This document shows, piece after piece, positions 8,991 to 39,099 of a DNA stretch of 43,479 bases (its first letter is position 1; the number at the start of each line of letters is the position of its first letter). The DNA lies in assembly GCA_009778545.1 (NCBI GenBank), contig WRJO01000004.1:1-43479 (forward strand), written 5' to 3'. The stretch comes from Treponema sp. (GTDB lineage: Bacteria > Spirochaetota > Spirochaetia > Treponematales > Breznakiellaceae). The notes below the pieces were generated by a model. It was given only the letters and a program-made list of their open reading frames with translations, searched no databases and was not told where the DNA came from. A program made the translations under genes and the position numbers.

Positions 8991-9050
8991 TACAATCAAT
9001 GCAAATGGTTGACTTAATGATGTTTTTAAATAATAATAGAGTCATATTTT

Positions 9051-10308: not shown

Positions 10309-10388
10309 TCAAAAAAAATCTCCCGAACAATGACGATTTCCTTCGGATATCGTCGTCCTAAAAAAGAATTAGTCTCGGATTTTTTTTC
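10309..10388. repeat. Inverted repeat AAAAAAAATCTCCCGA ... TCGGATTTTTTTT containing inner GACGAT/ATCGTC hairpin
   Basis: Read directly; terminator-like, upstream of the rpn copy. Confidence 0.55.
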
Positions 10389-10442
10389 AAAAAATCCTCG
10401 CAAACATTAAAGCAAAACGCAACATTGCGCCATATAAAGGGT

Positions 10443-11246: not shown

Positions 11247-11337
11247 AATAACGTGGTTGTTACGGTATTTGCTCTTCGCATGGTGTGTACCGATGCATTT
11301 GATTGTCGCACATGGTCACCCCTTCCCCAAATTTGTG

Positions 11338-11362
11338 CCTCCGTGCCTTTGTGTGATGTATT
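11338..11362. repeat. Solitary arm of the 'GTGCCTCCGTGCCTTTGTGTG' repeat family
   Basis: TGCCTCCGTGCCTTTGTGTGATG resembles the right arm at 6502-6546. Confidence 0.6.
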
Positions 11363-11438
11363 CTCAAAAAAATCATTTTTCCGCAAATTTCCCTCGCAAA
11401 CATTAAAGCAAATCGTAACTTCTCGCCATATAAAGGGT

Positions 11439-12326
11439 ATGAATACAATACAGAAGCATGAGCCGCCTGCGCGGCTCGACCCCCTCAATGATGTCCTTTT
11501 CATTAAGGTATTCGGCGAGAAAGGCGATGAAGGCCAACTTTTGGGCTTTCTCAATGCGGCACTGGACAGGACCGGCGATGACCGGCTTGTTTCAGTTGAA
11601 ATCCTCGAAGACAAAACATTCACGGCGAAATTCCTGGGTGACAAGACCAGCATCCTCGACCTGCGGGCACAACTCCAGGACGGCACTAAAGTTATTATTG
11701 AGGTCCAGCTCACCAACCTGAAAAACATGGACAGGCGCAGCCTCTTCTACTGGAGCAAGGAATATACTTCTGGAATAAAAAAAGGCCAGGACTATATTGA
11801 TTTGCCAAAAATCATCGCCATTAACATTATCGACTATAACTTTTTGGCGACTGAAAAAGTCCACACGGTCTTCCATATACGGGATGATAGCGAGCATGAA
11901 CTTATGCTGACGGATGTACTGGAAATTCACTTTATCAATATGGTAAAATGGAGGAAGCTGAAAGAGAAAGACATAAAGGGCGATCCTCTGCACCAGTGGC
12001 TGTCATATTTGGACAGGACCAGCCCGCCTGATCTGGTTGAGGAGGTTAAGAAAATGAATGAAGGGATACAGATGGCAGACGAACGGATGGTATACGTTAC
12101 CGGCGACGAAGAAGCCATCCGCGCTTACGAGATGCGGCAGATGGCGATTTACGATATGAACACACGGTTCCGCGAAAGTTTTGAGGAAGGCATATCACAA
12201 GGAAAAGCCGAAGGTCTTGCTGAAGCTAACCTGGAAATCGCACGGAAGATGAAGTCGTTGGGCGATTCTGCTGAAAGAATTCATACCATAACCGGCCTTT
12301 CAACCGAGACCATCGAAACACTGTAA
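11439..12326 (+). CDS. Rpn family recombination-promoting nuclease/putative transposase (PD-(D/E)XK), apparently intact
   Basis: MNTIQKHEPPARLDPLNDVLFIKVFGEKGDEGQLLGFLNAAL...SILDLRAQLQDGTKVIIEVQLTNLKNMDRRSLFYWSKEY...; ATG 11439 preferred to track start 11253 because the upstream 50 nt is a non-coding repeat shared with the neighbouring copy. Confidence 0.88.
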   Translation: MNTIQKHEPPARLDPLNDVLFIKVFGEKGDEGQLLGFLNAALDRTGDDRLVSVEILEDKTFTAKFLGDKTSILDLRAQLQDGTKVIIEVQLTNLKNMDRRSLFYWSKEYTSGIKKGQDYIDLPKIIAINIIDYNFLATEKVHTVFHIRDDSEHELMLTDVLEIHFINMVKWRKLKEKDIKGDPLHQWLSYLDRTSPPDLVEEVKKMNEGIQMADERMVYVTGDEEAIRAYEMRQMAIYDMNTRFRESFEEGISQGKAEGLAEANLEIARKMKSLGDSAERIHTITGLSTETIETL

Positions 12327-12328
12327 AG

Positions 12329-12500
12329 ATAGTGGTTAGCAGATAGTGGTTAGTGGCTAGTTCGGCATCCGAACAACAAGAATACTTCTATTAAATATTC
12401 CGGTTATCCGAACTGCAAAACTACTCACTAACCACTACTCACTAACCACTTCCTCCCCCACTACTCACTAACCACTTCCTCCCCCCACTAACCGCTTCCT
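12329..12500. repeat. 'AGTGGTTAGTGG' / 'CACTAACCACTACTCACTAACCACTTCCTCCCCC' inverted and tandem repeat between convergent genes
   Basis: Left arm 12329-12360, hairpin TTCGG-CAT-CCGAA at 12361-12373, right tandem arm 12420-12500. Confidence 0.85.
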
Positions 12501-24500: not shown

Positions 24501-25314
24501 CCGACGGGGGCTGGCTGTAGGGGAATATTTTTACCCCGTCCGAATTGACCGGCGCGTCTCCGTCGGCATCGCTGTAAATCTGCCAAAAGCGAATCTGCGG
24601 GGGGAAAAACCGCTGTATTTCGCCTGTTTCGGGATCTATCTCTTCGGCGCTTCTCTTGTTGATCCCCTCGTTGTCGGTGATAATGCCCGCCATCAGCGTG
24701 CTAACTTCCGCCCTGCGCGGATAGAACGGATAGTCGCCGCCCCTGTATTCGTAATTCAGCAGCGTGCTGCCCAGTTCCCCCCGGCTGATCCCCACGTTGA
24801 TCGGCGGAAGGGCCAGGCTGATAAGCGGCGGATCGTTCTTGATGAAGAAGGCGATTTCGTCGGTTTCCGTCCACTTTCCCACCGAATCGGTAACCTTGAG
24901 CCGGATTTTAAAATCGCCGTCGCCAAAGTCGCAGGTGTTAATGTCCAGGTACCATGTCCAGTCGGGCAGCAGCGTTACCGTGTAGTACTCGTAGTAGGGA
25001 TTGGGTATAAGAGTATGTAACCCGGTTTCCTCGTCAAAGATGGAGAGGTATTCGTCGTGGCTGGTTACTTTTAGTTCCACCTTGTCCAGCTTGTAGTCGT
25101 CGTGGGCGGTTCCATGGAACCTCCGTTCGCCGCGTATATGCTCCCCCGCCCCCGGACTTATAAGCGTTACCGTGGGATCGTAGAGGTCTACAACGCCGCC
25201 AAGGCCGGCCTTAAACGGCTGCTCGCAGGCGAGCATCGCCAGCAGCAGCGAACCAAGGCACAGCATACGGATAATTTTCTTACTTGCAATCATGGTTTTA
25301 ACCCTCTTATTCAT
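12499..25314 (-). CDS. Giant (4271 aa) Ig-like-repeat lipoprotein with C-terminal propeller-like (BNR/Asp-box-like) region
   Basis: Signal MNKRVKTMIASKKIIRMLCLGSLLLAMLAC|EQPF lipobox; repeated linkers of (F/I)xxDxxPPxV type (VDSSPPAAES, YDDTSPEIEL, IKDDSPPAIGF, LDNTPPVVTI); C-terminus GLVVAYYDTANNTLRLAYSN...YVSMKVDKENNIHLAFYNS...ISVDNEGNPWIVYGD. RBS AGGGAGGG before ATG. Confidence 0.88.
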   Translation of the reverse strand: MNKRVKTMIASKKIIRMLCLGSLLLAMLACEQPFKAGLGGVVDLYDPTVTLISPGAGEHIRGERRFHGTAHDDYKLDKVELKVTSHDEYLSIFDEETGLHTLIPNPYYEYYTVTLLPDWTWYLDINTCDFGDGDFKIRLKVTDSVGKWTETDEIAFFIKNDPPLISLALPPINVGISRGELGSTLLNYEYRGGDYPFYPRRAEVSTLMAGIITDNEGINKRSAEEIDPETGEIQRFFPPQIRFWQIYSDADGDAPVNSDGVKIFPYSQPPSEAELPWEAFADRHAHGDSLNDLGPHSAQFIFNLPNVADRFYAFQIRAQSRDIAATETYFPQSYYEEKWEGMSEAEQLECSLIIVYLSAPEESPTLNLWKLEAIDKAPPEGWNDDLDWYNDYDIDPEGSHRYIDRNISTKNGPFTLRLRARHSRGIASASVYFERDGGYKGRFIWDPADEPPYQGFYSDYVELAQPYIYWGLENPHIQEMTPSTRSFVFTYNDTGNERVTSKAYAALAGRSTVQIYQGPDWLNDKGRINTAALEASSYGDWIDIDDHPGSDGRLDEGHYTLYVTTRSKTSTPIPEPVSYDLYIDRVPPQVTLNGMEGGFVDIPAADDPGFADFDPLNPVYTVNGVVKPTFMIADMRPEDSRLRNATAPYFYREGYANNPEQVFVVVHENDRDIMESYIARMADPADREVTWLPISNSTVPGAMSLPDPDNPARNIIVRDGPIFNSACLFKVSPIYFTQDAQGNIIPDDWEKDRILPDGERYLLYAFARDNAFNVGHNSFPLKVDYESDKPKIDFGLSIEDRITEPNYGDPNTFETWPGMNRFRPGASIRVLRLSDDDGLDLGDSRTTDAGNSSVAVTMVGSYVDDDRKIIAYDDDAHIISLTQEEIKNAFAPQPTTTENGVVYRNAVKERRGGTISQTVLLDSLKKRPAYNFLFGAPDTESVSPIPPNSAKNNFHSLPDGLYKITVSVSDYTDPRIKLIMPDRAAHASAATTTKSFWIAVDSSPPAAESAGLFADKNRGTPINSIYISASTNVYLHGTVSDENGPIKVVDMQVFEGRDNITDEVTFEVSEGDLRRKPENQKIWEYNFIATINMQGRSGEFDYRLTFEDRFGVQSSLSARYSVDEEPPTVALTKMIDTFERRFNDVVLAGPRLSASSDNLNRGRLANKVISFTISATDNFKVDGIRWWLLPANAGSYGAVAAAQMGTSPSLYSALGGGMVTEYDAFPAGLPGYDEKDTVHIIPGALYGTGGYTNGASGGGAYGEVDMEKRSFTIFIDTEDLPNPDGEYRLFVIAVDSAGNISDASLQQEIFLLQEEDKPYFSNVSPGGGMVVGQTGLILQGAVLEDNGFDLSMDTLRIWLAHNHPNPALINIYDVENDPEFTLAGPDRNGIIVKAANGITVAGTSLNLNIPLVKSVDSERGLFTDAEFGGDGVKYIVIEATDAAINKYTPDGEKDTASRVSRRKLIHFVYDDTSPEIELLTPVNGSTYGRSARREFVIRGIFKDANLVKSGNIYKINWQLEGGQAVPLDVEIDPSLSSAAFNPENPGNISREFATTDINGHAVTGVYFTIPATDVYNMLHFEAISPGSHTLSFSVTDSSGKTGSDSVTFIKDMDPPSFSFTNIGEARLADLAPTLTFNRWWANNLTGQEYQDRNEDKYDAIHEYENRPNARSVVIYYDTGGMPVLAGTFEDGISDIDTESFEYQIDNEPVLRTAATFDGSGRNYRWTIDLAKADAAGNPTINPLDDGMHTIRFRIADTPGNWLDSEPEDVFDFRDMYVFLIDSKRPVVEIQAYNADDRMNTAKDIEIGDNDPPAVFGKTGSFTNYVFTVRGTATDANLREVRLWIRERATGKDVLNPPVRVLESDSYNHITFLPKPPEPLDPPATSGPPEYIEMSWQYSLSIEDYIGLTPGSVYDLFVTAADYTPGNESDEAVWSFIKDDSPPAIGFVSSLAPVNQDDLDPLNNLKPTDPYYNRFFSDSLRIQGSVTDTASGISRLESSVWQWDYMTGKWAEAQGWGLLTEWQEDSPGTGRTAVTDLKGNTSASVQWTKDLTHNVPYVGENGNWHIELIDTGIAYDAADVVNISGGNWQINGNTAINGGAAVPVKERADGLYRINLRAKDSSIISNGTELWDATGNGNPVYSDYVYFYYDRNNPAVSFDVDQFISSANSGGELVFPVTITDQNRFRTIQAELTLPGNVVREFTITADPVYPKEVDKEREVRFTVPNGVEDGLCRVKVTVFDMAGRWGEATRSFTLDNTPPVVTIDTPRRNDIRDPGYEWGGEKIDGGQDNQIRGSAADRSETHSESGIASMWYHIGFVNGTDWPNQAAIEAVVKTQFGGDFDAAADYVATGNADVKGNSWFRLGGVAPRGFVVNPNIHDWVMDIPDIFPGTENTTKEIVGGLKQYSRAIEVKGRDYNGSSTHKMVRPVPRDISGEDGIVSMPLYIRVTDRAGNVSYEWRDIWFYPDGDIPVTTINGLPEILDPDKPDDPVADVTMGGTVSVDGNATNVQSVNSVIFRVRVDKKVSAGGNYVSYAMYDPDDEDNIIELEGNDGSLLTGDSLEAGRSEWEVLVKGGVSTKGWYYANRESAAGNPSLPWNFNFNSLGEITNLIKTEGFYSGTGLPAGNPEDNNMIRVYLEVFAFSGKGQALRSSFAGSDRIADIDRLPEPTPKPYIRIFYIKNTTPEIKGREAGSFASGSPAVTEWQEYRGQGSTDLRSGRFAVRALLDAAEGRTLRAVFIRLGEEGGGWQPAWNIGDDATGNKTMPGLNIIPVDENGDAISPNNYNIPNRWYRLTMSFDSRATDAVTGFNQVKGGAWSEYGGKYPIEIRIQDDATPWSEAIQGFEIDIDNFAPAADPLRRTNPRAAGTNQDFMGRVFDFSDNLLNPGMGSANAPRDISHVYVWLTKRVGTAQVDSHFIKMMPKDGDTEKQKLISEGVLRTGILSNRNVEVAYDPVTDNAVSVKWPMKDDKEDKGTPSDIRYPAEIDTSPADTFNENGWVLKISGSTAIPGSVPRMSWIPNPRSWDITWMFQLDTEKLPDGLLTLHYIVEDTAGNASHHTQVITVGNSSPEIDRITLYTDNNGIGAVYETHDTMDIASTEYYIPEYRSIMTTNLTGTEAGFEKIMKNFGYLNSGFISKNSFIGFKVETMFGNNALNYSLQYVKRQQLTLTAEKLQAMVDNRTPSHADYGKYSNLYTIASLGDYTNPARWRSLGAHKAETPIGTHFVLALDAVPAGFEDSSAIVWQYELVGGLKKATPAGGLPKDDGFNPPVLPNNANPPIGEPGHGFNFQGADFDVVDTDKINEFFGSLPDNEDNDPCDTAFFLITVWDSLVENQGMEAQLHDAVVVGMNVYLTDPVPPTIRLYDLNPYTENAVTGNNVGDSRETDSDGNPIPNLDITIRNAANPRGIGDNILRGGLFNANTERDPVSSGHIEPRDSAHAASDLEPKDTALYPRVKNPGTGQYYNIWADGYVEGDSWKNKVKDNSGVEVEVARDMVSGKVILRGQAYDNQLIREIRIHIGASENTDLYHPVDGQGMAVLRIDTSDPLTNPNFRKLQPVNGAQAWAVEEMHWKDGHTVEWAYVWDTEKLPAGGAPAGNIGIWVAAIDENGNGKAGLASTKVERTQEVEAQDKFKTTAAVDIVPYITGFRRYGNNNPSFTVNWSSSSQQPRYATRRSRQGWYSFFRGETNIAAFGYNLKGPGATAMNIQTGGSASYNLTTTGTGVPTQTVNRIVFAVPNNTSSVSGKIRLETSVTVNGSEEALNHRTNADQSWNREGGSFTPGSQLWTNKPYAHIWRSMESSNASDTPVTYFGNKSEEAGSHELSSPSMALEYTGGNSGRLTGVWSVYRLKDVYYGRNSHAVRNPETPAKGSGDEQIPNHQVGRGFYSNTHQQYSGKPIIPPDAPYVGPDVSFYNGSRANGTIVCSWEAQGGRLLLRNGTDFNAPFISYDERSSHYLPISTTGNSGNNTVANDRWQNSRALATGTTSADSHGIAYNAVNGRLYYARGSVVTGSGSQSITASVNIDGSGATSGIVNNSICGTISASSNAGLFCAIDYDSTGLVVAYYDTANNTLRLAYSNSVTPNSTGSNWTRRYVLPANHALRQGSGRYVSMKVDKENNIHLAFYNSIHNTIVYAVGTRTGNFTAYAVDTVVSGGVWTDISVDNEGNPWIVYGDNFRIGSYDGARIAYRTNSNTASGGIRFIGTLADEITGHDITGWEAVSVPSDYVVNNDRLNIEAWPPTVRGGTLGSAPGWHAAIGYGSDMFRLAYFYRPTWKDY

Positions 25315-25327
25315 CGCCGTACCCTCC

Positions 25328-28300
25328 CTACTTCACATAATACGCGATTCGGAAATAATCCGAGGATAGATAGCCCACCGCCCCGTTCCAGAATTTGTTG
25401 TTATTGCCTGTAGTGGGACTGGAATTCCGCGCCGGGAAACACTCCATGCCGGTACGCCCGTTCTCCACAGAATAATCCGTGGGAACGTGCATGGTTTCCC
25501 AGCCGGTTATCGACGTACCGAACATGTCGTTAAGGTTTTTGGTATAGTCGGTAGTGTTGCGGTACGCCACCTTTACCCCGTCCTTTGAGTTTGCGTAACC
25601 CTCGTCGTGGTACGATATCCAGGGGTTGCCGTTTTCGTCCAGCGAGAGCGTACACCAGCGTCCTACTGCGCCCACATTGTCTACCACCTGCACGGTTACA
25701 TTGGTAAAGGTTGAGTTGGCGGCGGTATTGTTTGGGGTAATAATGCCGGTGATGTAGACCAGCTTTTTGGTAATTTCGTTCATCGCCGCTATGTGGATGC
25801 GGTTAAATGTGTCCGGATTGGTGGCGGCTGTGCCTCTCATATCAATCTTAATACTGACATACGCGCCGGTTCCAAAATGATTCTGGTTGGTCGTCGGGAT
25901 GACGTTATCTATGACGCGCCAGTTGTTGTTGCTGGCGTTGGAAGCGTTGGCAGTGGTGGGCGCAACATTGTTGCTGATCGCCATTTTTAGCTTTGAGTTG
26001 GTCGCATCGTAGTACACGATAACGGGATAGCCCTGACTGGTAACAGCAATAGCGTTGTGATAGCCGGTGTCGGGCAGCCCGGGTTTCGGACGATTGTTAC
26101 CGGTATTTTTGCGGCCGTCATGGTCATAGATACGGTCAAGGTTTGCGGTATGGGTTATGCGGAAAGCATCGCCGCCGTCCAGGGTAGCGTCTACGTTCCC
26201 GGTGTCATATCCAAACTGCGTGCCAGGAGTGATTTTACCATTATCATCATAATTGGGAAGGCGTTCCCAAAATGTACCATTCATCATCTGAAAATTACCC
26301 CAGGGAGGATGCCAGACTAGATGTAGGCCATTTCTGGTAGCCGGCCTTGAAACACGTGTCATTGTTCCCGGCATTGGCGCGCGCAATTCAAATTTTTCAT
26401 TTGCGGGAACTTGAGCTATAGCTGGCGTTTGTGGCTGCGGCCCTAAAGTATAGATCAACTGGTCCCGTGTAACGGTGAATGTGGTATTGATATTACTGTT
26501 ACTATTTCCAACATGTGTTTCCCGCAAAGCGTCAAATTTAAATTGGTCATGATCGATTACGTCAGTCCACACCATGCTTAGTTTATAATCCCGGGCCTCT
26601 GTAGCGTTTCTGCCGTTTCCCTCTGTGAGCGGGCCGTCTTCATCGTCAAAGCCGCCGTCCAGGTTTACCCATGCCCAGGGGGCTGCGGTAAATCTGTTTA
26701 TAATTCCGGGGTCTTGCCTCCTGTTATGCCGGTACTTTATCGAGCCGTCTTTGCCATCGTAGTAGCTAACATGAATGTGTTCTGCGCCGGAACCAGGCGT
26801 ATAAACGACAATGTGGGGCCGTGCGAACTGGTTGGTGCTCGCAGGTTCGGTATTCCCCCATTTAAACCGCGTAGAAGAGTTATAGTAGGTTTTTTCCACC
26901 AGGTAATGGCCAGTCGCGCCAGAAGTGCCGACTACGTTGCTCGGGAAGTTTGAAATAGCTTCATTTGGATAGCCACCTACACCGCTTTTAAGATTGGAAA
27001 CGGCGCCGCCCTGTCCCCAGACATACACCCCGCCAAGGTCCCACCATGCCTTGTTTGCCCCCTGCCTGCCAATAAAGCTGGAAACAACCCAAGGATGCGG
27101 GGATCGGTTACTGTTTCCGTTAGTTCCGCTGCCGACGCTAAAGTAAATATCGGACATAATAACCGGGTCTACAAAGGCGGCTACACGGCGGGTAGTATTG
27201 GAGTTGTTGCTGCTGACGGTGGTACCGTTGTTTTCATCATGACTCGACCAGAGCGTGCCGGTTCTGGGATCCATGCTCATGGAGGGGTTTTGAATAAACT
27301 GATTATCGTTGATCTTCCTGAACCGGCCCTGATCCGCGCCGGTATCGCTTGTGGTATTGTTCGACTGCCAGATATGGACACGGGTATAGTCGTCCCAAAG
27401 GTCAGAACCTTCGATGGCTGGCGAACGTTCCGTGTTCCAGGGTTGGATGTAGGGCTGTGTGCCTGACAATGGCCGGTCGGAGCCGTTATTGGCTGCCATA
27501 TAGCTGCCGGCGGTTAGCGTTAGCCTTCCGTCGCCCGTTGTCGCAGCCGCTTGTATGTTTTGGGAAAGAATACGGTAGCGGGCTGCACGGTAGGCATCTG
27601 CCGCGTCTTCATTTGCAGGAATATTGCCGTCAACAATGCCATACGTAACCAGGTTCGCGGCAGTCGCGGCACCGGTCCCCCTGTTTGCAGACTCCGGCAG
27701 CGAAATAGTGGTAGTAATATCGTCCCCGCCAAGGTTAAAGCCCTTTATTAACGGCGCTTCTGCCCTGGCAAAGATGTACCTGCCCTGCAGCGAGCGGGTG
27801 TCGTTGCGGAACTGCGTTTTATTCCGGTGGAATCCGGTAATGTAGGGCCGCAGGTGCATCTCTATGGCGTTGTACTTGTGCATGCCTTCAGGGAAGCCGG
27901 GGTTGTGTATCTCGTAGCTGATGCCGGTATTGGTGTGGGCCTCTTCCCGTGTCGCATTTATCGGGCTGCTTTCCTTTCTTGGCTCGGAAGCAACGGTATT
28001 GGTGTTCATGTTATACGAAAGGGCGCGGACGGTAACATTGCCCACGACGGTGTCTGCCGGAATCGTTTCGGTGTCCCACATATACGCCCATTCCACGCGG
28101 TGGCGGTACAGGTCGATGGTGTCGGTAAAGTACACCTTCCCCGCCGCGCTTGCGGACGGTGTTAAAAGACCGGTTCGCGGCGGCGTGAAATTCGCCGGAT
28201 TGGCCGGCGTTGCCGGATCGTCGGACTGCACCAAGATGTCGAACGTGCTGCCCCCTATTTGCAGGGCGACCCGCTGGACGCGCTGGTCGTCTTCCACATA

Positions 28301-31300
28301 GCCTCGCAGTATCACCTGGCCGCTTACCGTGTCATGGGTAAAGAATCCGGCGGGATTTGCCCAGGGCCGTTCAACAGAAGCAGTTGCTGCGCTTGCCGCC
28401 CCGCCCATCTGTACACTGGAAAGGCTGTGGTGCCATGCGTTGTATGGCGTAACGGTGTAGCCAATACTTCTTGGCTCTATGTGGCCGGGTTTTACAATAC
28501 CGGTGAGGTTTACGTTGGTGTTCCACAGGCCGCCCTTGGTGCGGTTACTGTTGGGGCCCTCGCCTATGAACATCGGCGTGAGCGAACGCTGTACGGTCTG
28601 CGGCCGGTCCTGCCCTTCGGTCATGGGGTTAAGGTCGTACAACTGGGCAAAGGGCCGCGTTATGTCGTTGTTGTTTATCCGCACGCGGATAAGGGCGAAG
28701 TCGCAGAAGAGGTCCTCTTCGGGGCCGTCGGACACTTTAAGTATGAACAGCGAGTGGTGCGGCCTGTTTCCGTCCGCGTCCGCCGCCTGGCCGGGCTGTA
28801 CGGGGTTAATGCCTTCGGCGGGGGGCCATGCGTTGGTTCCGCCAAAGTCGACGATCCTGGTGCCGTAGGCGGCGCCAAACGCGCTGCTTGCGTAGGCAAA
28901 TTCGGCGAACTGTACATCTGGATCAACGGTGCCGCCGCCCGCCGCCGGGTATTCAACGTCGTTAATTTGAAGTGCGGCATTAACATTGTTGTGGGTCCTT
29001 CTAACATAGTCCTCGGTGTTGGCAAAGGCGCTGTAATAGCCGCTGTTCAGTTCCCAGGCAGAACCAACGCCGCTTACCCTGGGTTTCCACGTATTGTCCT
29101 CATCCTGGAACATTCCGTTAACGGCGGCAATAAAGGTATACCCCCGCTGCCAGGGGCCTTCGCCCTCCGCGCCCAAACTGCCCCATGCGATGCTTCCGGG
29201 GTTGTCGATGATGTAGACGCGCCCTGCCATAACCTGCCGCAGGCCGTTGTCCGCCAGTTCATTGCTTACTATACTGGCGAGCTTTGCCGCGCCGGAAACA
29301 TATTCAACGCGGTAATTCCGTTTTTTCTTTGGATCAGGATCCGCCGCGGTCTTTATCCGCATGGCCATCAGGTCGTTGCGGACGTTAAAGTCGATAACGT
29401 GGCCAACGTTCAGCGCGTTGGAATGGATGGGGTTGGTAATGCCGCTCTGGTTGTCGTTCAGTCCGGTCACGCCGAATGAATCGCGTATCCTGTCCAGCGG
29501 CCACTTGGTTGAGGCATTATTGGGAGGATAGGGATAGCCGTTATGAGGAGCGGGATGGCTGACGTTGCCGGTGAAGGCGTTGGGAGTGTCGCCGGTAAAG
29601 ACGCTGTTGCCCCGGATGTCGGTGCCAAGCTGTATCCAGTCGATCAGCGGGGCATTGTTCATGATGACCAGCGGTTCTTCGTAGTATTTGGCGTTGCCCG
29701 CCTTGTCGAACACCACATAGTGCATCGTTACCGGGCCCGATTCCATGCCGAAGCTGTTGATTTCGACGTACCAGATCATCCCCATGCCGCCGTTGGTAAA
29801 GCCCATCGGCAGCCGGTGGCCGTGGTGATCCTGGCGGCCCATCGGATCGTTCCGGTCGATAACGATGGCCCAGCTTCCGCCCGACCCTGCCGCATTGCCG
29901 GATTCAATCCCGCCTGCTATGCCCGGTATCAATATCGGCCGGCCCTGCCTGTCGGCAGCCGGAATTACGCCGTCGGTTATCAATTCGTCTGCCCATTGGA
30001 CATTTGCCGGAACGGCCGGCCATGGCGTAGCCGGCAGCGTAGTAATTCCCGTCACAGATGTCTCGTGCCAGGACAAAAAGTTCCTAGGGCGGACTCCGGC
30101 TACTTCTTCGCCAAGCCGCGAGAACCACAGCACCACCCGCGCAACGCCGGACACGTCTCCGGCATCGCCCGCTTCGCCGCCGATGGGAACGGAAACGCCC
30201 GCAGGCCGCCGGTTTTGGGTATAGGCGGCGGTGGGGGCATATTCGTCGATGGGCAGGAAGGCGGTGCGCGAGGCGGACAGCGGCGTTGGCCGCGAGATGT
30301 CCGAAGCGGTCAGGTACACGGGGAACAGCACCGAAGCTTCCGGCTCTCCGGGGTCGATGCCCATTTTTTCCAATAGTTTTGTCGTGTATACGTCTACGGT
30401 AACCTGCCACAGGTAGTAGCGGTCGGCGGTTCGTTCAATTACTTTCGCCGCGCCGATACTCGCCGTAGAGCCGGTGATTACGCTGTACCGCATATAGGCA
30501 GGATCGGTAGATGTTTTTCCGGTGAATTCCTGATTCGGGATAACATTCAGCGCATCGTTCCACTCCCATATAATATAGGTACTGGCGGAATTCAGGGTTA
30601 TTCCTGTCTTGAGTTGCCCCGGATGCGGCTCGGCGCGTACCGCCATGCCGGCAGTACGGGCTGCAACTCCGGCCTTATCCGTTAAGTAGGTCCCGCCGAC
30701 ATCATAGTAAGCGGAATCCAGCAGGTTGTACGCATTGCCGCTGCCGGAAAGGGCGCGGAAAACGCCGTCGCTATATTCCGTTCTGTTCCAGCGGATCGAT
30801 CCAAGGCCGTTATCGTCTTTTACCGTTATCCGGTACGAGCCGTGCCTTCGCAGGTTGATCTCGTTAACCGAATCCCAGTCTGTTTCCGCAGGGTTAAGCT
30901 TGCGGGCTGCCTGTTCGTTTTCAAAGATAGGCGCGCCCGCCACTACCAGCGCGTTAACGGGGAGCGGCCGGCTTACCAGGCCCCGCACGTCCAAATCCCA
31001 TTTGCCGGTCGCTTCGTCCATCGTAGCGTCTTCGGCGCGCACTTCAATAATAACCTTGCTTGCCCCGCTGCCCACTTTCTTTGAAAGCTCGTCGCGGACG
31101 TTAATATCGGCCCACCAGCTTGCGACGGTATTGCCATCGCCGCCCCTGTTTGCCATGTACCAGCCGCCGCTGTCATCATCGTCGCCGGCAGCAAAGCCTC
31201 CGCCAATTTCTGCTCTGGTTTTTGCAGTCTGGGTTCCCGTACCTGCCGTCCAGTTGGTCTCGTTCCAGTTGGGAATATCGTTCAGCTCATAGGGCTGCCC

Positions 31301-34300
31301 GTGATCAGGCTCATCGTCGTTATCGTTTATTACCCTGAACCAAACGTACCTGATCCGCTCGTTGTCCCGCGCCTGGCCCCTGATGCGGATTGGCCCGTTC
31401 AGCAGGCGTTCGGCATCCGACGCTTCCGAGCTGGGGTTGGTAATGCTTGTTATGACAGGGCGGTCCCCTTCGGGGTAGAGCCAGTACTGCAACTTTGCGG
31501 TGGTAATGTTCCCCGCCGGATCGGCTGCCATTACATGAATCGTAATTAAGCCGATCTCCTCGCCCGGCTCAATCTTCCTGCCGTCATACCGGACATCCGC
31601 ATAATTTGTAGCGCTGGTATTGCCGGTATCAAATCCGCCAATAACGCCGCCCATTTCGCCCCATTGGACGTATTTGTCTTTATCTTTTGAAAGAATCAAA
31701 TTCCTCGTGTTGGGTATTCGGATTTCCCAGCTAAAGGTTCCCTGCCGTACTTCGAGCAGAACTTTGCCTTCGCTGTCCTTAAGTTCGTGGTTCCCGCCGC
31801 CGCCTTCGTTGTACAGCCATTCGGCGGAATTGGGCGCCGGCGCGGGGGCGTTCCAGTTGGCGTTATTCGTCACAAAGAAAGACACCCGGTCGATAAGGTT
31901 GGAATTGTCGCCGGCGTTGCCCCTAAAGTTTACCCTGCCGGTCTGCGCATTACGGAAAATGTTCGGCGGAATTGCCGTATCAGTCGATTGCTGCGGCGGC
32001 TGGAAGTTGCTTAGTTCGGGGTCCCTGTTATCCAGGATAAACTGCCGGGTGTCGCCGCTTATCGCCTCCCTGCCCGCCGCGTCAAACACAAAGAGCTGCA
32101 GGGTATAGGACTTGGGCGGATCGCCTGGAGCCGCGCCAACCAGATCAAGCGGCGTTCCCGTAGCCGTTCCGTCGCCGGTCATGCGGGGCGATACGGTCAA
32201 AGTCCGCTCGGTGTTCCAGGCAAAGCCCGAAAGGGTTCCGTTGGCATCTGTCGTGCCTGCCGGGGCAGTAATCGGGAATCGTCCGACCTTAACATCGCCG
32301 TTTGAGTCCAGCACCTCCGCTTCAACCTTTGCGATGGTATTGGCGTCTTTCAGTTCGAACGTAAATTCTACCCTGCCTAAGTCGTTGTTCTTAAAGTACA
32401 TTCTGTCTGCATCGTTAGGATTAACGGGAGCATAGATAATTTCGGGATAGTCGTTGTCAATAAAGAATATTCTTGACTTATAGCGATCTTCCGTCAGCGG
32501 ATCCCTCGTATCCAGGGGATTGCCGGTTCCTATCGACCAGTCGGTAACGTACAGGTCCAGTTTGTATTGGCCTTCTTCGTACACCCCCATCGCTTTCAGA
32601 TCGTTAAAGGCGATTTCCCAGTTAACCGATGTTTCGGCGTTATCTTTGGAGTAGCCGGATGGAAGCGCGCTGGGCCAATAGTCCCTGCCGACAGGATCAT
32701 CGGGATCGGGCTGTATATCATTCCAGACGGAATTATAGTACCAGGACCACTTGCTTTCCTCATAGTTCCATTTGGCGATGCTGTACCGCACGTCCTGAAC
32801 CTTTGTATGGTCGCTCGCCGTTCCATTCAGGTCAAAGCCCCTAAGTCCGTCTTCGCTTACCTCAAACACCGACGGCGCAGTTGCGGAAAGGTTCGAGTAT
32901 TGAACAGCGGGGGGTTCCGTGTCCAGGTTAAAATTCCAGATAAAGGGGCCGGCCCTGCGGCGGGCCTTATCCCGCGCCACCACGCTGATAAAGTGCCGCC
33001 TGCCATGATTCGGCGGCGAGCCGCGCAACGCCGCTACGTCCGCTTGAAGAACGGTAAATTCCCATTCGTACAGAGGCGCGCTTCCGGTAACGGTCAGCCG
33101 GGGATCGCTGCTCTGGGGGTTATTTACATCCCCGTCGACAACGTATTTGCCGGTGATCGCGTTGTAATCGACGGTAACGGAATAGTTGCTTGCGGAGGCA
33201 ACATGGGCCTGCTCGATGGTAAACGTCAGCTCGGCAAGGTTATGCTCGTAGACATAGCCTTTCAGGCTGAACGCTTCGGTACCTGGGCCAAACGAGCTGA
33301 ACACCCGCTCGGTTTCCGACTCAAGGGCGGTGCCGGGCGGCGTTATCAGGAAATTCTCCACCCTGTTCTGCTGTTCCGGGGCCAGGTTTGCCATTTCGCC
33401 GGGCGTTGCTGTCCAGCCAAAATATGGATCGGCCCTGTCCAGTATGAACTGTATGCCGTATATGTACGACCAGTTCCCTGCCGAGTCGTCTATTCCGATG
33501 TCAATCCTGTTACGGCCGTCAGTAAGGCCGTAGCTGTCGGAAATCTCAATTTTCCATGACGCGGAAGATTCCTTCTGGTCTTTAACGGGATCGGCAATAG
33601 GCATGTCTTCCCAGGGCATAGGATCGAGTCTGCCGGTTGAATTGAAACGGTACAGGAATTTTTTAGGCGTTTCCATCCCCGGCGGATCGGCATTAATATC
33701 GTCCGCTTTCCAGACGTTGGAAAATTCGTCCTGGAACCTTCCCTCGATAAAGGGCAGATTATTGGATATATTGGAAATAACGGTGGGAGAGTCGGTTCTT
33801 TCGTTTTCCCGCTCCAGTTCGGCAATTACCCTTTCGGCGGTAAAGAATGCATACTCGGTCGGCCAGTTTTCGATAACGTCTTTCCAGCTTTGATCCCATG
33901 CAAGCCACTTTGCATCGCCCTTGCCGGAGGGCCAGTCGGAGGGCCATGCCGGGCCTTGGGTCGCCCCCGATCCTGAGCCGTTCGGGAAAGCGCCGGGGAG
34001 AAGGGGAAGAATGTCGCTGCGGCTGATTGCCCGCGATATGTTGTTGGTAACGATGTCCGGCCCCCGCGTGTCCTTGTAGAACATCCACGAAACCTCGGCG
34101 GGTTGGCCGGCCACGTCTACGGCTTTAATGCTGATGCTGTGCGGCCCCTGGGGGGCTGTCTCAAACTGGGCCAGATCGTCCGCCGTTACCGACCAGTAAA
34201 AATCTCCATCTGCCGGGGGATTATCGGGATCGTAGCTGAACAGCGTCCGGGTCATCTGCCCGTAGGTAAAGTACACGAATTTTAGGTTTTCTTCGATTAC

Positions 34301-37300
34301 CGTTCCGGTCAAATCGTTGAGCAGGTCTTCCAGCGACGAGTACGTGGGGCGGGTGCCCGAATCGATTGGGTCATAGTTGTCAAACGTAATTACCGGGGGT
34401 GTGTCGTCCAGAATAAAGCTGAAATATTCGTTGTCGCCGGGGAATGTTTTTGACTCCGCGCCGATGTAGGTAAACGTAAAACCGGGGAAGTTTTCGGGAT
34501 TATCACGTTTGTAGGTATCGGGGTTCTTGCCGAAATTGAGGTTGTCCGGCCCCGCGTCCGGCTCGTCGGTTATTCTAATCTGATAATGCTTGGGGCCGTC
34601 TTTTTCAAAGTAATTGTTAAAAATCGTTTCCATGCTGCCGCTGGTTTTGGCGGCGTAATCGGCAATATCAAACGCAAAATTAATCGTCTCGGCGGGATTG
34701 CGGGTTCCCGGAACATTTATCCAGGCACCCCACGATGTCGGCTCATAGGTGGCGTTCACCGAAGCGGGGAAGCGTATCTGCACGTATGGGTTTTTTGCCG
34801 GATCATAGGCATCGCTCATTTTCGCCGGGTCAAAGCGGTCGTCGTCGAACGCCCTGCCGCTTATCGTCAGGCCGCTTCTGCCAACGGCGCTTTCCCTGGA
34901 GGAGCCGCTCGGCGGGCTGATGCTGCCGACCAGTTCCGGTATGTCCCTGGCCTGGTTAACAATGAAGGGAGCGCTGCTTGGGATCAATATCCGGGTATCC
35001 CCGGTGTTGTAGTTCCCCGCGTTGTCTTCGGCCATGGCGAACAGCACGTACGCCGCCCCGTTCTCGAGCTTTGTTGAATCGATAACAGCCCGGTAGCGCC
35101 CGCCGCTCATCGAGTCGGCGTAGCGGAACTGGCCGTCAAAGCCGTCTGCCGGATTAACCAAAGCGTAATTGGTAGGGTTGTCAAAGTCGTCGGGCGGCAG
35201 GGTGCCGGCGCGGCGGATCCACCATTTTACCCGGACGCGATCATGGTCGGCCTCTTCCTTGATGCCGTTATCGTCGGAAGCGTTAATGGTAAACAGCACT
35301 TTGCCGTGCACCGCGCCATCGCGGTTGTTGTTGAATTCGCCCAGCGAAACGCGGGGGTCCGTGTTGTCTACCTGCACCTCGCGATCTTCGACGGAAGAGC
35401 TGCCGACGCTGTCCCATGCTTCAATGCTGAACCGTCTGCCGGAGCTGGTGGTATCAAGGCCGGCCGGGCTGAAGTTGACGTTATCCATGTGCCAGTTGTA
35501 GGTGTAGAACCCCTGGGGATCGGGGACGGGATTGGGAAGACCGCCGCCGCCTACAGGCGACCGCACAAGGCTTAGGGAATCGTTGTACAGCATCTTGCTG
35601 CCGGTGCTCGGCGTTGGGCTGACAACGTCGGGGGTAAAGGTGATGTACAGCGTTTTTACCTCAAAGCGGCTTCGTACCGTGCCGCTTATGGTAATGGGCA
35701 GTTCGCTTTGCAGGGAATTCGGCTGGGGAGATTCTATCTCTATCTCCGGCGTGTCGTTTAACACGGCAAAATGGTAGCTTGCCGCAACCGTTACTTCCGA
35801 AGGGTCGTCGCCGGGCTGTTCCTTTCCCGGCGGGCGGTCGATTTTTACCTTGGCGTTTTTGTCGTCGGTAACGGTAAAGTCGATTTTGTACATCCCGTCG
35901 CGCAGGGCCAGGCTTGCCGGAGGGTTGGCGATACCGTAGAGCGCCGACGCCATCAGCCGCTGGCTGAGCGTGCCCGACCAGGAAAGGCTGTTGCCGCTAA
36001 GAAATTCAAGCTGATCGTTATTGAGCGTTACTTCGTTTTCGGCAGGGCCGTTCAAATCGGTAATGGTTATGGTAATAAATTCCCTGTCCCGCCGCACGCC
36101 GTCGTCGTCGGAAATGTGTATCTCAATGCCAGCGCCCATTTCCAGAATGTTGTTCCTGCCGGACTCGCCCCAGTTGCCTTCCCTGGAAATTCTTCCGTCA
36201 TTGTCGATGTCTCTGGAAACGAATACATGGAGTTTGGAATGGTGGTCGATTAATTCGCCTTCGCCGTTGTCGCCATACAGATCGGGAATGTCAAGCACGG
36301 GCTTGTCGCCCTCGTCGTTAACGCGGATCTTCTGCAAAAAATAGCCAAGGTTGTGCACGCCGTCCTGGGCGATGATGTACAGCCACAGGTATTTTCCGTT
36401 GTCGTGGGGTTCATACTTCTCCGTAACCGGGTTCCACGCCGTTAGCGGATTATCCCAATCGTTTTTGCCGTCAACCTCGTTGCGGGTGTTGAACTTGAAG
36501 TGCGGCAGCAGGTCTTCGCGGTATGCGTCTGCCGGCGGGGGAACGCTCACCGGCATTACCCAGCCGGAAACGGCGCTTTCTTCTATATTATAAAAGAAAT
36601 CAAGCCCGTCTCTTGAGGGATCGTGCCGGTATTTATTGAGCAGGCTCAGCATGGTGGTTCCGCTGCGGTCGGGATCGGGGGTGGCCGTCTCGACTACCCA
36701 CTTAACCATCGAGAAACCTTTTGCGGGCGGAGTTATGCCCATGCCCTCCTCGTGCCCCATGATCCCCGAATTGTCGACGCGGCTGATGGCAACCTGGATG
36801 TTGCCGTTGACGATGTAGGGATCGTCGAGGCGGGCATCGTCCTGCAAAGCGCCAAAGTCTGTATCCTCCGGATCGATTTCCGATCCGCGCAGCGAAAGTA
36901 TCCGCACCTTGGGGCCGTCGCCGTCCAGGTAGAGCATGTAGCGCGCGGTGTTCTGAATGCCGCTGTCGGTGTAGACCGTTACCCGCAGGGTGTACGGCTC
37001 CGAACTGGGCGTAAAAATATAATCGCCGTAATGATCGTTGTCGCGATCATTTTCTTCCAGATGCCCGTCTGCGGTAAATTCAAAGAGCCTGCCTTCGCCC
37101 TGTTCGCCGGGGACCTTGAACTTGCCGTGGTACCCGTGGTGGGCCATTGTCAGATCGTTTCTGGGGTCAACATAGCCTTCTCCGGCCGCGCCATAATCGT
37201 CCCACTTGAGGAATCCGGTCCGGCGGGAACTTTCGTGTTCATATTCCAGTATCGCGTGATGTATCGGATTTTCGGAATGGGTCGCCACCACCCGCAGGCG

Positions 37301-38482
37301 GAAGTCGTTCCTTCCGGAGTGGCCGATGTGGATTTTTCTGCTTGTCGGATCGTTGATGTAGATGTTGGGTTTCGCCAGCAGGACTTCGTTGTTAATGTCG
37401 TCGTTGTCCAGCCGAATTATGGGAAGTTCCTCAACGCCGATAAGCGTGAGGGTGATGGGCGTAATGTCGGGATCAAGGGGGTCTTCGTAAATCGTGTCGT
37501 AGCCGAGCGGCGGAAAGTAGCCGATTATTTCCGTCTCGTCGCCCACAGGGCGGCGCGGCTTGAGGAATTCGTCAAAGAACGTGTCCGATGTCCGTATCTT
37601 AAAACGGTACACCTGTCCCGACGGCAGGGGAATCTGATTCCCCCCTTCCAGCTCGTACTGTATCGCTCGGGTATCCGTTACCGGATCGAGTGGGGCTATG
37701 GTGTACTGGTTCAGGTTGAAGATGAACTGCGCGACGCGGACCGGCGCTTCGTTGTAGCGGTTCACATACGATCCCTGCCCCATGGGGTTGTCGTAGCCGG
37801 AGAGGAACAGGCTCGCCCAGCCCCAGTTCGGATCATCGTCGGCGGGCTCGCCGCCGGGAAGCTCCTGCGGCCAGAATTTTATTTGGGGATAGCCGGGCTT
37901 AAGTCCCTTGCGGTCGGTTATCTGCCCGCGAATTTCCGTGCCGGTTAAAATCTGGTAATCGCCGCCGTGCCCCCGGAAGTGGGGAGAAGTAAGCCTGACA
38001 TCGGAAGTGTTATTTTTTACGATGTACACCAGCTCGATTGAGTCGGCAAACAAATTGGGATCTCGGGCGCGGAACTGCAATTTTACGATGCCGTCTTCCA
38101 GCCCTACCCGGTCTTCAAAAACTTTTCTGAGCGTATCCAGATCGAAGCGCCAGTTTTTTTCCCGCAGGCTATCCGTCGGCTCGAATTCGATGCCTTCGCT
38201 GGTCCAGTCCATGATGGGCCGGTCTTCCATTCCGTCTTCCAGGTTAAATATCTTAACCTCTACGCTGGAAAGTTCCCGGTACGCCGTAGCTTTGCCGGTA
38301 AATACGGCTATGCCTTTAAGGTACGCGCCGGATACGGGATCTTCTATGGTTATCGTCGGCGGTTCAACGGTAACTTTCCCGCCCATGTTGTTACTTAGCG
38401 GATTCTCGCAAGTAAGAAAGAGCACGAGTATGGCGGCAAAAGCCGCAGAGAACCAAATTGTCTTTTTTAAAAAGGTATGCAT
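25328..38482 (-). CDS. Giant (about 4384 aa) Ig-like-repeat lipoprotein, paralogue of the downstream giant gene
   Basis: MHTFLKKTIWFSAAFAAILVLFLTC|ENPLSNN lipobox at start 38482 (track start 38539 adds 19 aa before the signal peptide); FILDDTPPVITF, VDNTDPRVSL-type linkers; C-terminus GYPVIVYYDATNSKLKMAISN...YVSIKIDMRG...LSLDENGNPWISYHDEGY matches the other giant. Confidence 0.87.
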   Translation of the reverse strand: MHTFLKKTIWFSAAFAAILVLFLTCENPLSNNMGGKVTVEPPTITIEDPVSGAYLKGIAVFTGKATAYRELSSVEVKIFNLEDGMEDRPIMDWTSEGIEFEPTDSLREKNWRFDLDTLRKVFEDRVGLEDGIVKLQFRARDPNLFADSIELVYIVKNNTSDVRLTSPHFRGHGGDYQILTGTEIRGQITDRKGLKPGYPQIKFWPQELPGGEPADDDPNWGWASLFLSGYDNPMGQGSYVNRYNEAPVRVAQFIFNLNQYTIAPLDPVTDTRAIQYELEGGNQIPLPSGQVYRFKIRTSDTFFDEFLKPRRPVGDETEIIGYFPPLGYDTIYEDPLDPDITPITLTLIGVEELPIIRLDNDDINNEVLLAKPNIYINDPTSRKIHIGHSGRNDFRLRVVATHSENPIHHAILEYEHESSRRTGFLKWDDYGAAGEGYVDPRNDLTMAHHGYHGKFKVPGEQGEGRLFEFTADGHLEENDRDNDHYGDYIFTPSSEPYTLRVTVYTDSGIQNTARYMLYLDGDGPKVRILSLRGSEIDPEDTDFGALQDDARLDDPYIVNGNIQVAISRVDNSGIMGHEEGMGITPPAKGFSMVKWVVETATPDPDRSGTTMLSLLNKYRHDPSRDGLDFFYNIEESAVSGWVMPVSVPPPADAYREDLLPHFKFNTRNEVDGKNDWDNPLTAWNPVTEKYEPHDNGKYLWLYIIAQDGVHNLGYFLQKIRVNDEGDKPVLDIPDLYGDNGEGELIDHHSKLHVFVSRDIDNDGRISREGNWGESGRNNILEMGAGIEIHISDDDGVRRDREFITITITDLNGPAENEVTLNNDQLEFLSGNSLSWSGTLSQRLMASALYGIANPPASLALRDGMYKIDFTVTDDKNAKVKIDRPPGKEQPGDDPSEVTVAASYHFAVLNDTPEIEIESPQPNSLQSELPITISGTVRSRFEVKTLYITFTPDVVSPTPSTGSKMLYNDSLSLVRSPVGGGGLPNPVPDPQGFYTYNWHMDNVNFSPAGLDTTSSGRRFSIEAWDSVGSSSVEDREVQVDNTDPRVSLGEFNNNRDGAVHGKVLFTINASDDNGIKEEADHDRVRVKWWIRRAGTLPPDDFDNPTNYALVNPADGFDGQFRYADSMSGGRYRAVIDSTKLENGAAYVLFAMAEDNAGNYNTGDTRILIPSSAPFIVNQARDIPELVGSISPPSGSSRESAVGRSGLTISGRAFDDDRFDPAKMSDAYDPAKNPYVQIRFPASVNATYEPTSWGAWINVPGTRNPAETINFAFDIADYAAKTSGSMETIFNNYFEKDGPKHYQIRITDEPDAGPDNLNFGKNPDTYKRDNPENFPGFTFTYIGAESKTFPGDNEYFSFILDDTPPVITFDNYDPIDSGTRPTYSSLEDLLNDLTGTVIEENLKFVYFTYGQMTRTLFSYDPDNPPADGDFYWSVTADDLAQFETAPQGPHSISIKAVDVAGQPAEVSWMFYKDTRGPDIVTNNISRAISRSDILPLLPGAFPNGSGSGATQGPAWPSDWPSGKGDAKWLAWDQSWKDVIENWPTEYAFFTAERVIAELERENERTDSPTVISNISNNLPFIEGRFQDEFSNVWKADDINADPPGMETPKKFLYRFNSTGRLDPMPWEDMPIADPVKDQKESSASWKIEISDSYGLTDGRNRIDIGIDDSAGNWSYIYGIQFILDRADPYFGWTATPGEMANLAPEQQNRVENFLITPPGTALESETERVFSSFGPGTEAFSLKGYVYEHNLAELTFTIEQAHVASASNYSVTVDYNAITGKYVVDGDVNNPQSSDPRLTVTGSAPLYEWEFTVLQADVAALRGSPPNHGRRHFISVVARDKARRRAGPFIWNFNLDTEPPAVQYSNLSATAPSVFEVSEDGLRGFDLNGTASDHTKVQDVRYSIAKWNYEESKWSWYYNSVWNDIQPDPDDPVGRDYWPSALPSGYSKDNAETSVNWEIAFNDLKAMGVYEEGQYKLDLYVTDWSIGTGNPLDTRDPLTEDRYKSRIFFIDNDYPEIIYAPVNPNDADRMYFKNNDLGRVEFTFELKDANTIAKVEAEVLDSNGDVKVGRFPITAPAGTTDANGTLSGFAWNTERTLTVSPRMTGDGTATGTPLDLVGAAPGDPPKSYTLQLFVFDAAGREAISGDTRQFILDNRDPELSNFQPPQQSTDTAIPPNIFRNAQTGRVNFRGNAGDNSNLIDRVSFFVTNNANWNAPAPAPNSAEWLYNEGGGGNHELKDSEGKVLLEVRQGTFSWEIRIPNTRNLILSKDKDKYVQWGEMGGVIGGFDTGNTSATNYADVRYDGRKIEPGEEIGLITIHVMAADPAGNITTAKLQYWLYPEGDRPVITSITNPSSEASDAERLLNGPIRIRGQARDNERIRYVWFRVINDNDDEPDHGQPYELNDIPNWNETNWTAGTGTQTAKTRAEIGGGFAAGDDDDSGGWYMANRGGDGNTVASWWADINVRDELSKKVGSGASKVIIEVRAEDATMDEATGKWDLDVRGLVSRPLPVNALVVAGAPIFENEQAARKLNPAETDWDSVNEINLRRHGSYRITVKDDNGLGSIRWNRTEYSDGVFRALSGSGNAYNLLDSAYYDVGGTYLTDKAGVAARTAGMAVRAEPHPGQLKTGITLNSASTYIIWEWNDALNVIPNQEFTGKTSTDPAYMRYSVITGSTASIGAAKVIERTADRYYLWQVTVDVYTTKLLEKMGIDPGEPEASVLFPVYLTASDISRPTPLSASRTAFLPIDEYAPTAAYTQNRRPAGVSVPIGGEAGDAGDVSGVARVVLWFSRLGEEVAGVRPRNFLSWHETSVTGITTLPATPWPAVPANVQWADELITDGVIPAADRQGRPILIPGIAGGIESGNAAGSGGSWAIVIDRNDPMGRQDHHGHRLPMGFTNGGMGMIWYVEINSFGMESGPVTMHYVVFDKAGNAKYYEEPLVIMNNAPLIDWIQLGTDIRGNSVFTGDTPNAFTGNVSHPAPHNGYPYPPNNASTKWPLDRIRDSFGVTGLNDNQSGITNPIHSNALNVGHVIDFNVRNDLMAMRIKTAADPDPKKKRNYRVEYVSGAAKLASIVSNELADNGLRQVMAGRVYIIDNPGSIAWGSLGAEGEGPWQRGYTFIAAVNGMFQDEDNTWKPRVSGVGSAWELNSGYYSAFANTEDYVRRTHNNVNAALQINDVEYPAAGGGTVDPDVQFAEFAYASSAFGAAYGTRIVDFGGTNAWPPAEGINPVQPGQAADADGNRPHHSLFILKVSDGPEEDLFCDFALIRVRINNNDITRPFAQLYDLNPMTEGQDRPQTVQRSLTPMFIGEGPNSNRTKGGLWNTNVNLTGIVKPGHIEPRSIGYTVTPYNAWHHSLSSVQMGGAASAATASVERPWANPAGFFTHDTVSGQVILRGYVEDDQRVQRVALQIGGSTFDILVQSDDPATPANPANFTPPRTGLLTPSASAAGKVYFTDTIDLYRHRVEWAYMWDTETIPADTVVGNVTVRALSYNMNTNTVASEPRKESSPINATREEAHTNTGISYEIHNPGFPEGMHKYNAIEMHLRPYITGFHRNKTQFRNDTRSLQGRYIFARAEAPLIKGFNLGGDDITTTISLPESANRGTGAATAANLVTYGIVDGNIPANEDAADAYRAARYRILSQNIQAAATTGDGRLTLTAGSYMAANNGSDRPLSGTQPYIQPWNTERSPAIEGSDLWDDYTRVHIWQSNNTTSDTGADQGRFRKINDNQFIQNPSMSMDPRTGTLWSSHDENNGTTVSSNNSNTTRRVAAFVDPVIMSDIYFSVGSGTNGNSNRSPHPWVVSSFIGRQGANKAWWDLGGVYVWGQGGAVSNLKSGVGGYPNEAISNFPSNVVGTSGATGHYLVEKTYYNSSTRFKWGNTEPASTNQFARPHIVVYTPGSGAEHIHVSYYDGKDGSIKYRHNRRQDPGIINRFTAAPWAWVNLDGGFDDEDGPLTEGNGRNATEARDYKLSMVWTDVIDHDQFKFDALRETHVGNSNSNINTTFTVTRDQLIYTLGPQPQTPAIAQVPANEKFELRAPMPGTMTRVSRPATRNGLHLVWHPPWGNFQMMNGTFWERLPNYDDNGKITPGTQFGYDTGNVDATLDGGDAFRITHTANLDRIYDHDGRKNTGNNRPKPGLPDTGYHNAIAVTSQGYPVIVYYDATNSKLKMAISNNVAPTTANASNASNNNWRVIDNVIPTTNQNHFGTGAYVSIKIDMRGTAATNPDTFNRIHIAAMNEITKKLVYITGIITPNNTAANSTFTNVTVQVVDNVGAVGRWCTLSLDENGNPWISYHDEGYANSKDGVKVAYRNTTDYTKNLNDMFGTSITGWETMHVPTDYSVENGRTGMECFPARNSSPTTGNNNKFWNGAVGYLSSDYFRIAYYVK

Positions 38483-38626
38483 ACTACACCCCCCATGTGT
38501 CCTCATGGCGACACTACCCCCATTGTATAACCTAAGCATTAATATAGCACAATAGTTTAGAAATATCTACAATATCGGCACATACCGCCTAACACTTGCA
38601 GGCAAAACCACCCCCCCCTGGCGGGC

Positions 38627-38866
38627 TAAACTTGCCCCACAATGTATTTGCTCAAACCCCGGCGGGGCGGGGGGGGGCGGGCGGGCTGGCAAAAATCTGG
38701 AAGAGTCCGACTACGGAGCCACCTGACCACTAATACATGATGCTTAGGGTAACTATCCATAAATCATCTTTAATTAGTGGTCAGGCATTTACTGTACCCT
38801 AGTTTTGAAATTTACCCGCTCGTCTCCTTCGTCGGGGAGCTCCAGAAATTTTTTGCCAGCCCGCCG
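38627..38866. repeat. Structured dispersed element, copy B
   Basis: CTAAACTTGCCCC left end; GGCGGGCTGGC/GCCAGCCCGCC (38680-38690/38855-38865) followed by AAAAATCTGG/CCAGAAATTTTTT; CTCC/GGAG hairpin; CCTGACCACTAAT/ATTAGTGGTCAGG (38722-38734/38773-38785); loop TAGGGTA (38745-38751) complementary to TACCCTA (38795-38801). Confidence 0.8.
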
Positions 38867-38917
38867 CCTTTGCAATACATGCCGGTCAGTTATTTACCGT
38901 GCCTCAAGTAAATAAAA

Positions 38918-38969
38918 TTTACTCGCTCATCTCCTCCAGCGGTGAGACCCATAAATTTTCGCCGCCCCC
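38918..38969. repeat. Extra copy of the 3' module of the structured element
   Basis: TTTACTCGCTCATCTCCTCCAGCGGTGAGACCCATAAATTTTCGCCGCCCCC parallels copy B 38811-38865 and copy A 10191-10238. Confidence 0.7.
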
Positions 38970-39099
38970 GCTGCGCCCCCCTCGCTGCCCTCACTCCCTC
39001 ACTCCTCACTCCCCATTCCACATTCCACATTCCCCTCCCCTCTTCCCCTTTTCTTTTTTCGCCGATAATATGTCATACATAAAACTTAAAAAGGTGAGT

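Follow-up and report, generated by a model that had tools for sequence, protein, structure and literature searches.

What is the structured element at positions 38627-38866 (+ strand; copy B), which lies in the divergent gap between giant lipoprotein genes and an OmpA-family gene? The window, meaning the whole stretch of 43,479 nucleotides that was analysed, forms contig 4 of a metagenome-assembled spirochaete genome (G000; 2.0 Mb, 68% complete). It also holds copy A (10011-10276, +; core 10064-10233, 141.1 bits), which is complete with both terminal inverted repeats. An earlier sequence-only reading had delimited copy B at these positions and had considered either a regulatory leader or a neutral insertion site. 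In our view, copy B is probably an insertion of a high-copy, non-autonomous, intergenic mobile spirochaete repeat, the conserved hairpin core of which acts as a single-stranded nucleic acid.

Architecture of the core hairpin

The 5' terminal inverted repeat of copy B, TAAACTTGCCCCACA with its preceding C, occupies 38627-38641 (+; pattern search, 0 mismatches). A 3' terminal repeat matching it is missing from copy B, the 3' end of which is broken, and complete copies elsewhere end in TGYGGGTCAAGTTTA. The conserved core is marked by a full-length match to covariance model R1 at 38687-38857, + in the orientation of the window (161.1 bits, E 1.4e-41; copy B itself is among the 42 sequences from which the model was built), and its putative RNA strand is the minus strand. 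The core model describes one long irregular hairpin, running from helix P1 inward to a terminal module. Specifically, P1 consists of variable GC-rich arms with a conserved 3-nt bulge; in copy B, minimum free energy folds place the 5' arm GGCGGGCTGGCAAAAATCTGGA at 38680-38701 and the 3' arm CCAGA-AAT-TTTTTGCCAGCCCGCC at 38842-38865, and both arms are borne out across 114 copies, in which 94.7% and 87.4% of the P1 cells are paired. An internal loop, GA at 38703-38704 (G 1.00, A 0.98 in 112 copies) opposite GA at 38837-38838 (G 1.00, A 0.99 in 114 copies), is near-invariant on both strands and could form tandem G.A pairs.

Further inward lies a second paired region. The sequence-only reading had missed it, as it had the terminal inverted repeats and also another, broken copy fused downstream of copy B (38884-38969, +); only the 3' half of that copy is present, and by blastn it is 75-82% identical to the corresponding halves of copies A and B. 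The first part of the paired region is the 5-bp helix P2a, CCGCC/GGCGG with compensated variants; copy B has CCGAC (CCGCC in most copies) at 38707-38711, partnered with GTCGG at 38831-38835, and in the 114-copy pairing test double changes occur at 5/5 pairs and 94.8% of cells are paired. Across a TNC/TNC loop follows the 4-bp helix P2b with a bulged T, which reads GGAG/CTCC and also ACAG/CTGT, GCAG/CTGC and ATAG/CTAT. In copy B it is formed by GGAG (38715-38718), followed by an invariant CC, and CTCC (38824-38827). By the same test 98.6% of P2b cells are paired; two pairs co-vary (GC/AT; GC/CG/AT/TA) and two are invariant.

The terminal module is interchangeable. The shortest family members have a 3-nt loop (~77-nt core), others carry small hairpins, and the window's species has a 60-90-nt hairpin, P3, of two types, plus a linker of ~40 nt. 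Copy B bears type I, with CCTGACCACTAAT at 38722-38734 pairing with ATTAGTGGTCAGG at 38773-38785, as seen in the sequence and in the 114-copy pairing test, where double changes occur at 9/9 modelled pairs. The alignments place the single-stranded linker CATTTACTGTACCCTAG...CTCGT at 38786-38823; linker and P3 are both missing from the short members of about 77 nt. A coding core was considered and is unlikely, since core lengths differ by 1-20 bases among copies and no shared reading frame is possible.

In copy A, the CGGGCGACCG stretch has the appearance of a footprint left by an optional insert of ~130 bp, which several copies carry. The GA internal loop is where this insert (GCCTAAGAACAAGCACTGCGTTAAGCAGTGT...ATGGCAAGAGCCCCAAAAGAGCCACTGTAATAAT...) lies in several copies, and it occurs elsewhere too; it was noted in the G000 copies C11:600-960, C57:2507-2695, C101:2596-2782, C30:19767-19938, C105:5170-5356, C88:4788 onward and C98:5592 onward, and at L187 and L188. 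In sequence it is similar to a ribosome-binding site with a 9-codon frame, and its 3' junction is retained in copy A. Pieces of a PDDEXK_2 (Rpn-type) transposase-nuclease gene, as direct repeats, adjoin copy A (10379-12326 and 8766-8991), and a HEPN-domain protein is encoded nearby at 9364-9819.

The fold is maintained by compensatory change

The sequence-only reading had claimed that the stems differ between copies A and B with pairing preserved. The sequences bear this out: the inner stem is CCTGACCACTAAT/ATTAGTGGTCAGG in copy B and CCTGACCACTTGAT/ATCAAGTGGTCAGG in copy A, and in the outer stem GGCGGGCTGGC of copy B pairs with GCCAGCCCGCC, while the arms of copy A differ yet are self-consistent. 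As RNA, copy B folds far better than its shuffles, with z -4.8 on the plus and -5.5 on the minus strand. In a plain MAFFT alignment, 90.8% of the cells in the five helices are paired (75.0% when shuffled, 39-52% when slid), with 220 double-changed cells against 75 in shuffled alignments. Across 114 copies from 30 genomes the corresponding values are 93.9% of stem cells (shuffled 71.2%, slid 41-53%) and 734 double-changed cells against 196; this alignment (A4) was fitted to the covariance model, so its pair counts are somewhat inflated, and the plain MAFFT alignment shows the same. Taken together, the two alignments strongly support a structure upheld by compensatory change. Two further proposals did not survive the wider comparison. 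The exact 7-bp pseudoknot was suggested by TAGGGTA (38745-38751) and TACCCTA (38795-38801), both of which are present in copy B; yet over 42 copies the paired share of its cells is only 47.3%, no higher than the 47.3% averaged by shuffles, and the site in most copies reads GAGAGTA versus TACCCTA or TATCCTA. Likewise, the small 5' hairpin, thought to persist while changing, has zero double changes and does not rise above shuffles.

Paired arms could also arise in a plain foldback repeat, in which one arm is rewritten from the other by template switching or gene conversion, giving structure without selection. We consider this improbable. Double changes do far exceed one-sided ones (734 versus about 18), as such copying would give, and the core-less short forms resemble palindrome deletions. 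However, the GA/GA and TNC/TNC loops, the bulged T and the 3-nt bulge are near-invariant in 30 genomes, and these mismatched features are recognisable in other genera too. Arm-to-arm copying alone is therefore insufficient, because correction would erase the mismatched loops, yet they persist. Conservation reaches 97-100% at the loop bases (GA/GA, TNC/TNC and bulged T) but does not attain 60% in many stem columns; since the loops are near-invariant while the stem sequences vary freely, selection acts on the irregular hairpin and not on a mere palindrome.

A dispersed family with species-specific ends

The element belongs to a sizeable family. A BLAST search with copy B alone returned 54 matching stretches in G000, and the covariance model built from 42 copies found about 46 places there. 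Of 40 genomes in the genus, 30 carry it, with copy numbers that range from 1 to at least 65 and are bounded by how many candidates were scored. It is also present in ten more genomes from other genera of the same taxonomic family, one of them a complete 4.1-Mb genome; G307, from a second family, gave a marginal match (E 9e-5). The exact core motif is also present in the records Treponema sp. Hs463_bin133 and Spirochaetaceae Ncb351_bin73, the termite-gut origin of which we take from the record names. We take the host range to be Treponema and relatives, represented by metagenome-assembled genomes assumed to be of termite-gut origin. Nothing matched among plasmids, so plasmid carriage is unsupported, and viral contigs gave zero exact matches to one 25-base family pattern. 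In Rfam 15 a tRNA was the sole match in the window and the element fell in no family, and 25 further loci searched at low stringency gave nothing at the gathering score. Rfam miRNA identities were discarded: those matches are sub-threshold and reflect only long hairpins. No description of these repeats was found in the literature, and the element family is previously uncatalogued.

Twenty-seven complete elements in G000 are bounded by inverted TAAACTTGACCCRCA-type ends. Exact 8-bp target duplications flank 3 of these 27 (shuffled mean 0.14, maximum 2), namely CATGAAGG, AGTGGGGA and CCTAAAAC, of which AGTGGGGA sits in simple sequence. Forms of 66-70 bp in the same genome have the ends and no core. 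The same core lies within different ends according to species: CAGGGCAACAGCATTTAC in G009, AAACGGTAATTTGTCGCAC in G011 and ACAATNAT in G060. In the G009/G018 and G060 end families a clear target duplication is absent. Compared at the sequence level, the terminal inverted repeats are species-specific and the core is common across species. In the proposed mechanism, these species-specific ends would serve transposition in trans.

A mobilising enzyme or autonomous partner with the same ends was not identified in the 68%-complete G000 assembly. Genes for Y1_Tnp proteins occur in 13 of the 30 genomes that have the element and in 5 of the 10 that lack it; they were not found in G001, G008, G018 and G021, each of which has 10-30 element copies. 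RAYT/REPIN mobilisation is accordingly unsupported, since Y1_Tnp presence does not track element presence across the 40 genomes. G028, in which the model finds no core, contains ~690-bp units bounded by TAAACTTGACCCRC inverted ends, matching those of the element, at L245 (G028:C2:8519-9207) and at more than 30 further places, giving about 36 full or partial copies. The unit protein of 160-215 aa has a weak, below-cut-off match to Y1_Tnp (Y1/IS200-type) and, judged by eye, apparently misses the HUH and tyrosine motifs. From these sequence features, the unit gene is possibly an expanded, catalytically dead RAYT-like gene.

Neighbouring genes of copy B

The position of copy B had suggested a riboswitch-like 5' leader controlling either the giant lipoprotein gene or its OmpA-family neighbour, between which it lies in a divergent gap. 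The flanking pair is recognisable in G018 (by eye, from both gene starts), the only syntenic divergent pair found; there the gap is ~125 bp and element-free, against ~617 bp around copy B. The other relatives that have the OmpA-family gene, where synteny is not established, all lack the element upstream of it, and in G060 a weak copy lies elsewhere in the stretch around that gene. On the lipoprotein side, the sole promoter-like site (38541-38569, minus) falls in the interval separating the gene from the element, although a single match of this kind is close to the number expected by chance. Since the G018 gap is empty, relatives lack the element upstream and the promoter-like site is gene-side, copy B is read as a lineage insertion and not a conserved leader.

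The genes beside other copies are unrelated, and every arrangement is represented (divergent 24, tandem 18 and 16, convergent 13), with no clear orientation bias. Genomes with a single copy have unrelated neighbours and no synteny around the element, for which reason a resident single-copy RNA gene was also rejected. These observations make a leader of either neighbour very improbable, and copy B presumably does not specifically regulate the adjoining genes. The suggestion of a neutral insertion site is partly right: the repeat does insert at dispersed places, but its structure is conserved. That conservation also sets the element apart from the simple MITE without structural conservation that the sequence-only reading had named as its own refutation.

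Two giant frames follow one another on the minus strand, at 12499-25314 (4271 aa) and 25328-38539 (4403 aa). The second opens with what is likely a lipoprotein signal (LFLTC, at about 38482), and the first 513 residues gave no Pfam match. On the other side, within 38899-39099, the listed GTG-start frame of the OmpA-family gene begins inside the broken second copy; the ATG at 39100, preceded by AAGGTGAG, is more likely its start.

Which molecule folds

The imperfect cells of the helices point to a strand. Read on the + strand, A.C outnumbers G.U by 66 to 21, in the same direction in all helices; counted as distinct per genome, the ratio is about 47:21, and where the two distinct counts differ, A.C is ahead in 15 genomes and G.U in 4. 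An A.C excess on this strand equals G.U on the opposite one, so minus-strand RNA is favoured, and the asymmetry in these sequences points moderately to RNA of the minus strand. Additionally, for 75 of the 114 copies the fold is slightly better on the minus strand. Wobble cells are few whichever strand is read, at 0.6% and 2.0% (together 87/3242). A wobble share this low is unusual for structured RNA, although the expectation is uncalibrated here.

Because wobbles are rare in total, folding could also take place at the DNA level. A transposase would then recognise a single-stranded or cruciform DNA hairpin of REP/REPIN or attC type, and the arm covariation would reflect DNA pairing only. Besides the few G.U and A.C cells, this explanation would fit the arm pairing of at least 30 bp in many copies, the DNA fold of the minus strand of copy B (z -7.3 against shuffles) and the Y1-transposase-like gene that in G028 lies within these same terminal repeats. 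However, A.C exceeds G.U about 3:1 throughout the helices and in 15 versus 4 genomes, Y1_Tnp genes are distributed without regard to the element, and the G028 protein is a weak match that seemingly lacks the catalytic motifs. We therefore regard a purely DNA-level element as somewhat unlikely. Under our preferred reading, the hairpin would act as a single-stranded nucleic acid, likelier as minus-strand RNA than as an extruded DNA hairpin, and a putative protein may bind it, used by the element or by the host. We suggest only tentatively that the repeat is a mobile non-coding RNA family, in which the functional unit, a minus-strand RNA, would have been carried by several unrelated transposon end sets over the history of a spirochaete family and have reached dozens of copies per genome.

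Likeness to known repeats

The best reading of the kind of repeat is MITE/BOX/REPIN-like: it has BOX/REPIN architecture and some MITE traits, and lacks the REPIN traits that were tested. BOX of Streptococcus pneumoniae (PMC3049150) is likewise high-copy and intergenic. It has terminal inverted repeats, its end modules pair with one another, a middle module that is optional and interchangeable forms a fold of its own, and a folded RNA is predicted. This likeness, drawn from PMC3049150, is architectural only, with no sequence relation seen. Unlike BOX, the present element has a core common to several genera, near-invariant internal loops, species-varying terminal repeats and controlled covariation. 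REP/REPIN sequences (PMC3733652, PMC3116915) share with it two inverted halves forming one hairpin, a variable middle and persistent genomic populations. CGTC-tagged REPs are reported in Spirochaetes, among other phyla, as are RAYT genes with long terminal repeats at their borders and REP dimers within longer palindromes in that literature (PMC3733652, PMC3116915). In contrast to REPINs, Y1/RAYT genes do not track the copies, and 8-bp target duplications flank some of them. No GTAG/CGTC tag is conserved in the alignments, where an invariant GTCT is preceded by C, G or A and accompanied by the GA loop.

MITEs such as Correia/NEMIS, ERIC and QMITE2 are small and non-coding, with inverted ends, target duplication and expected hairpin transcripts (PMC10969869). 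The element resembles them in being small and apparently non-coding, in its inverted ends and, at 3 of the 27 complete elements, in target duplication; terminal inverted repeats are found in G000 and, as other ends, in G009, G011 and G060. Whereas the ends of MITEs are the conserved part (PMC10969869), here the ends vary by species and the inner hairpin is conserved. Integron attC sites came into consideration on account of a single-strand hairpin with a variable terminal structure; the AAAAC/GTTTT flank is not universal and is missing from the G000 copies.

Implications

The new aspect is a conserved inside combined with exchangeable ends across a bacterial family, which inverts the usual MITE pattern of conserved ends. 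The same irregular fold is kept across many species, so something must read it. The repeat thus represents a structured nucleic-acid family that is missing from Rfam 15 and makes up a visible share of the intergenic DNA of termite-gut treponemes. Since its interior is conserved while its ends vary, the question whether small bacterial repeats are parasites or carriers of a useful RNA or DNA structure becomes directly testable.
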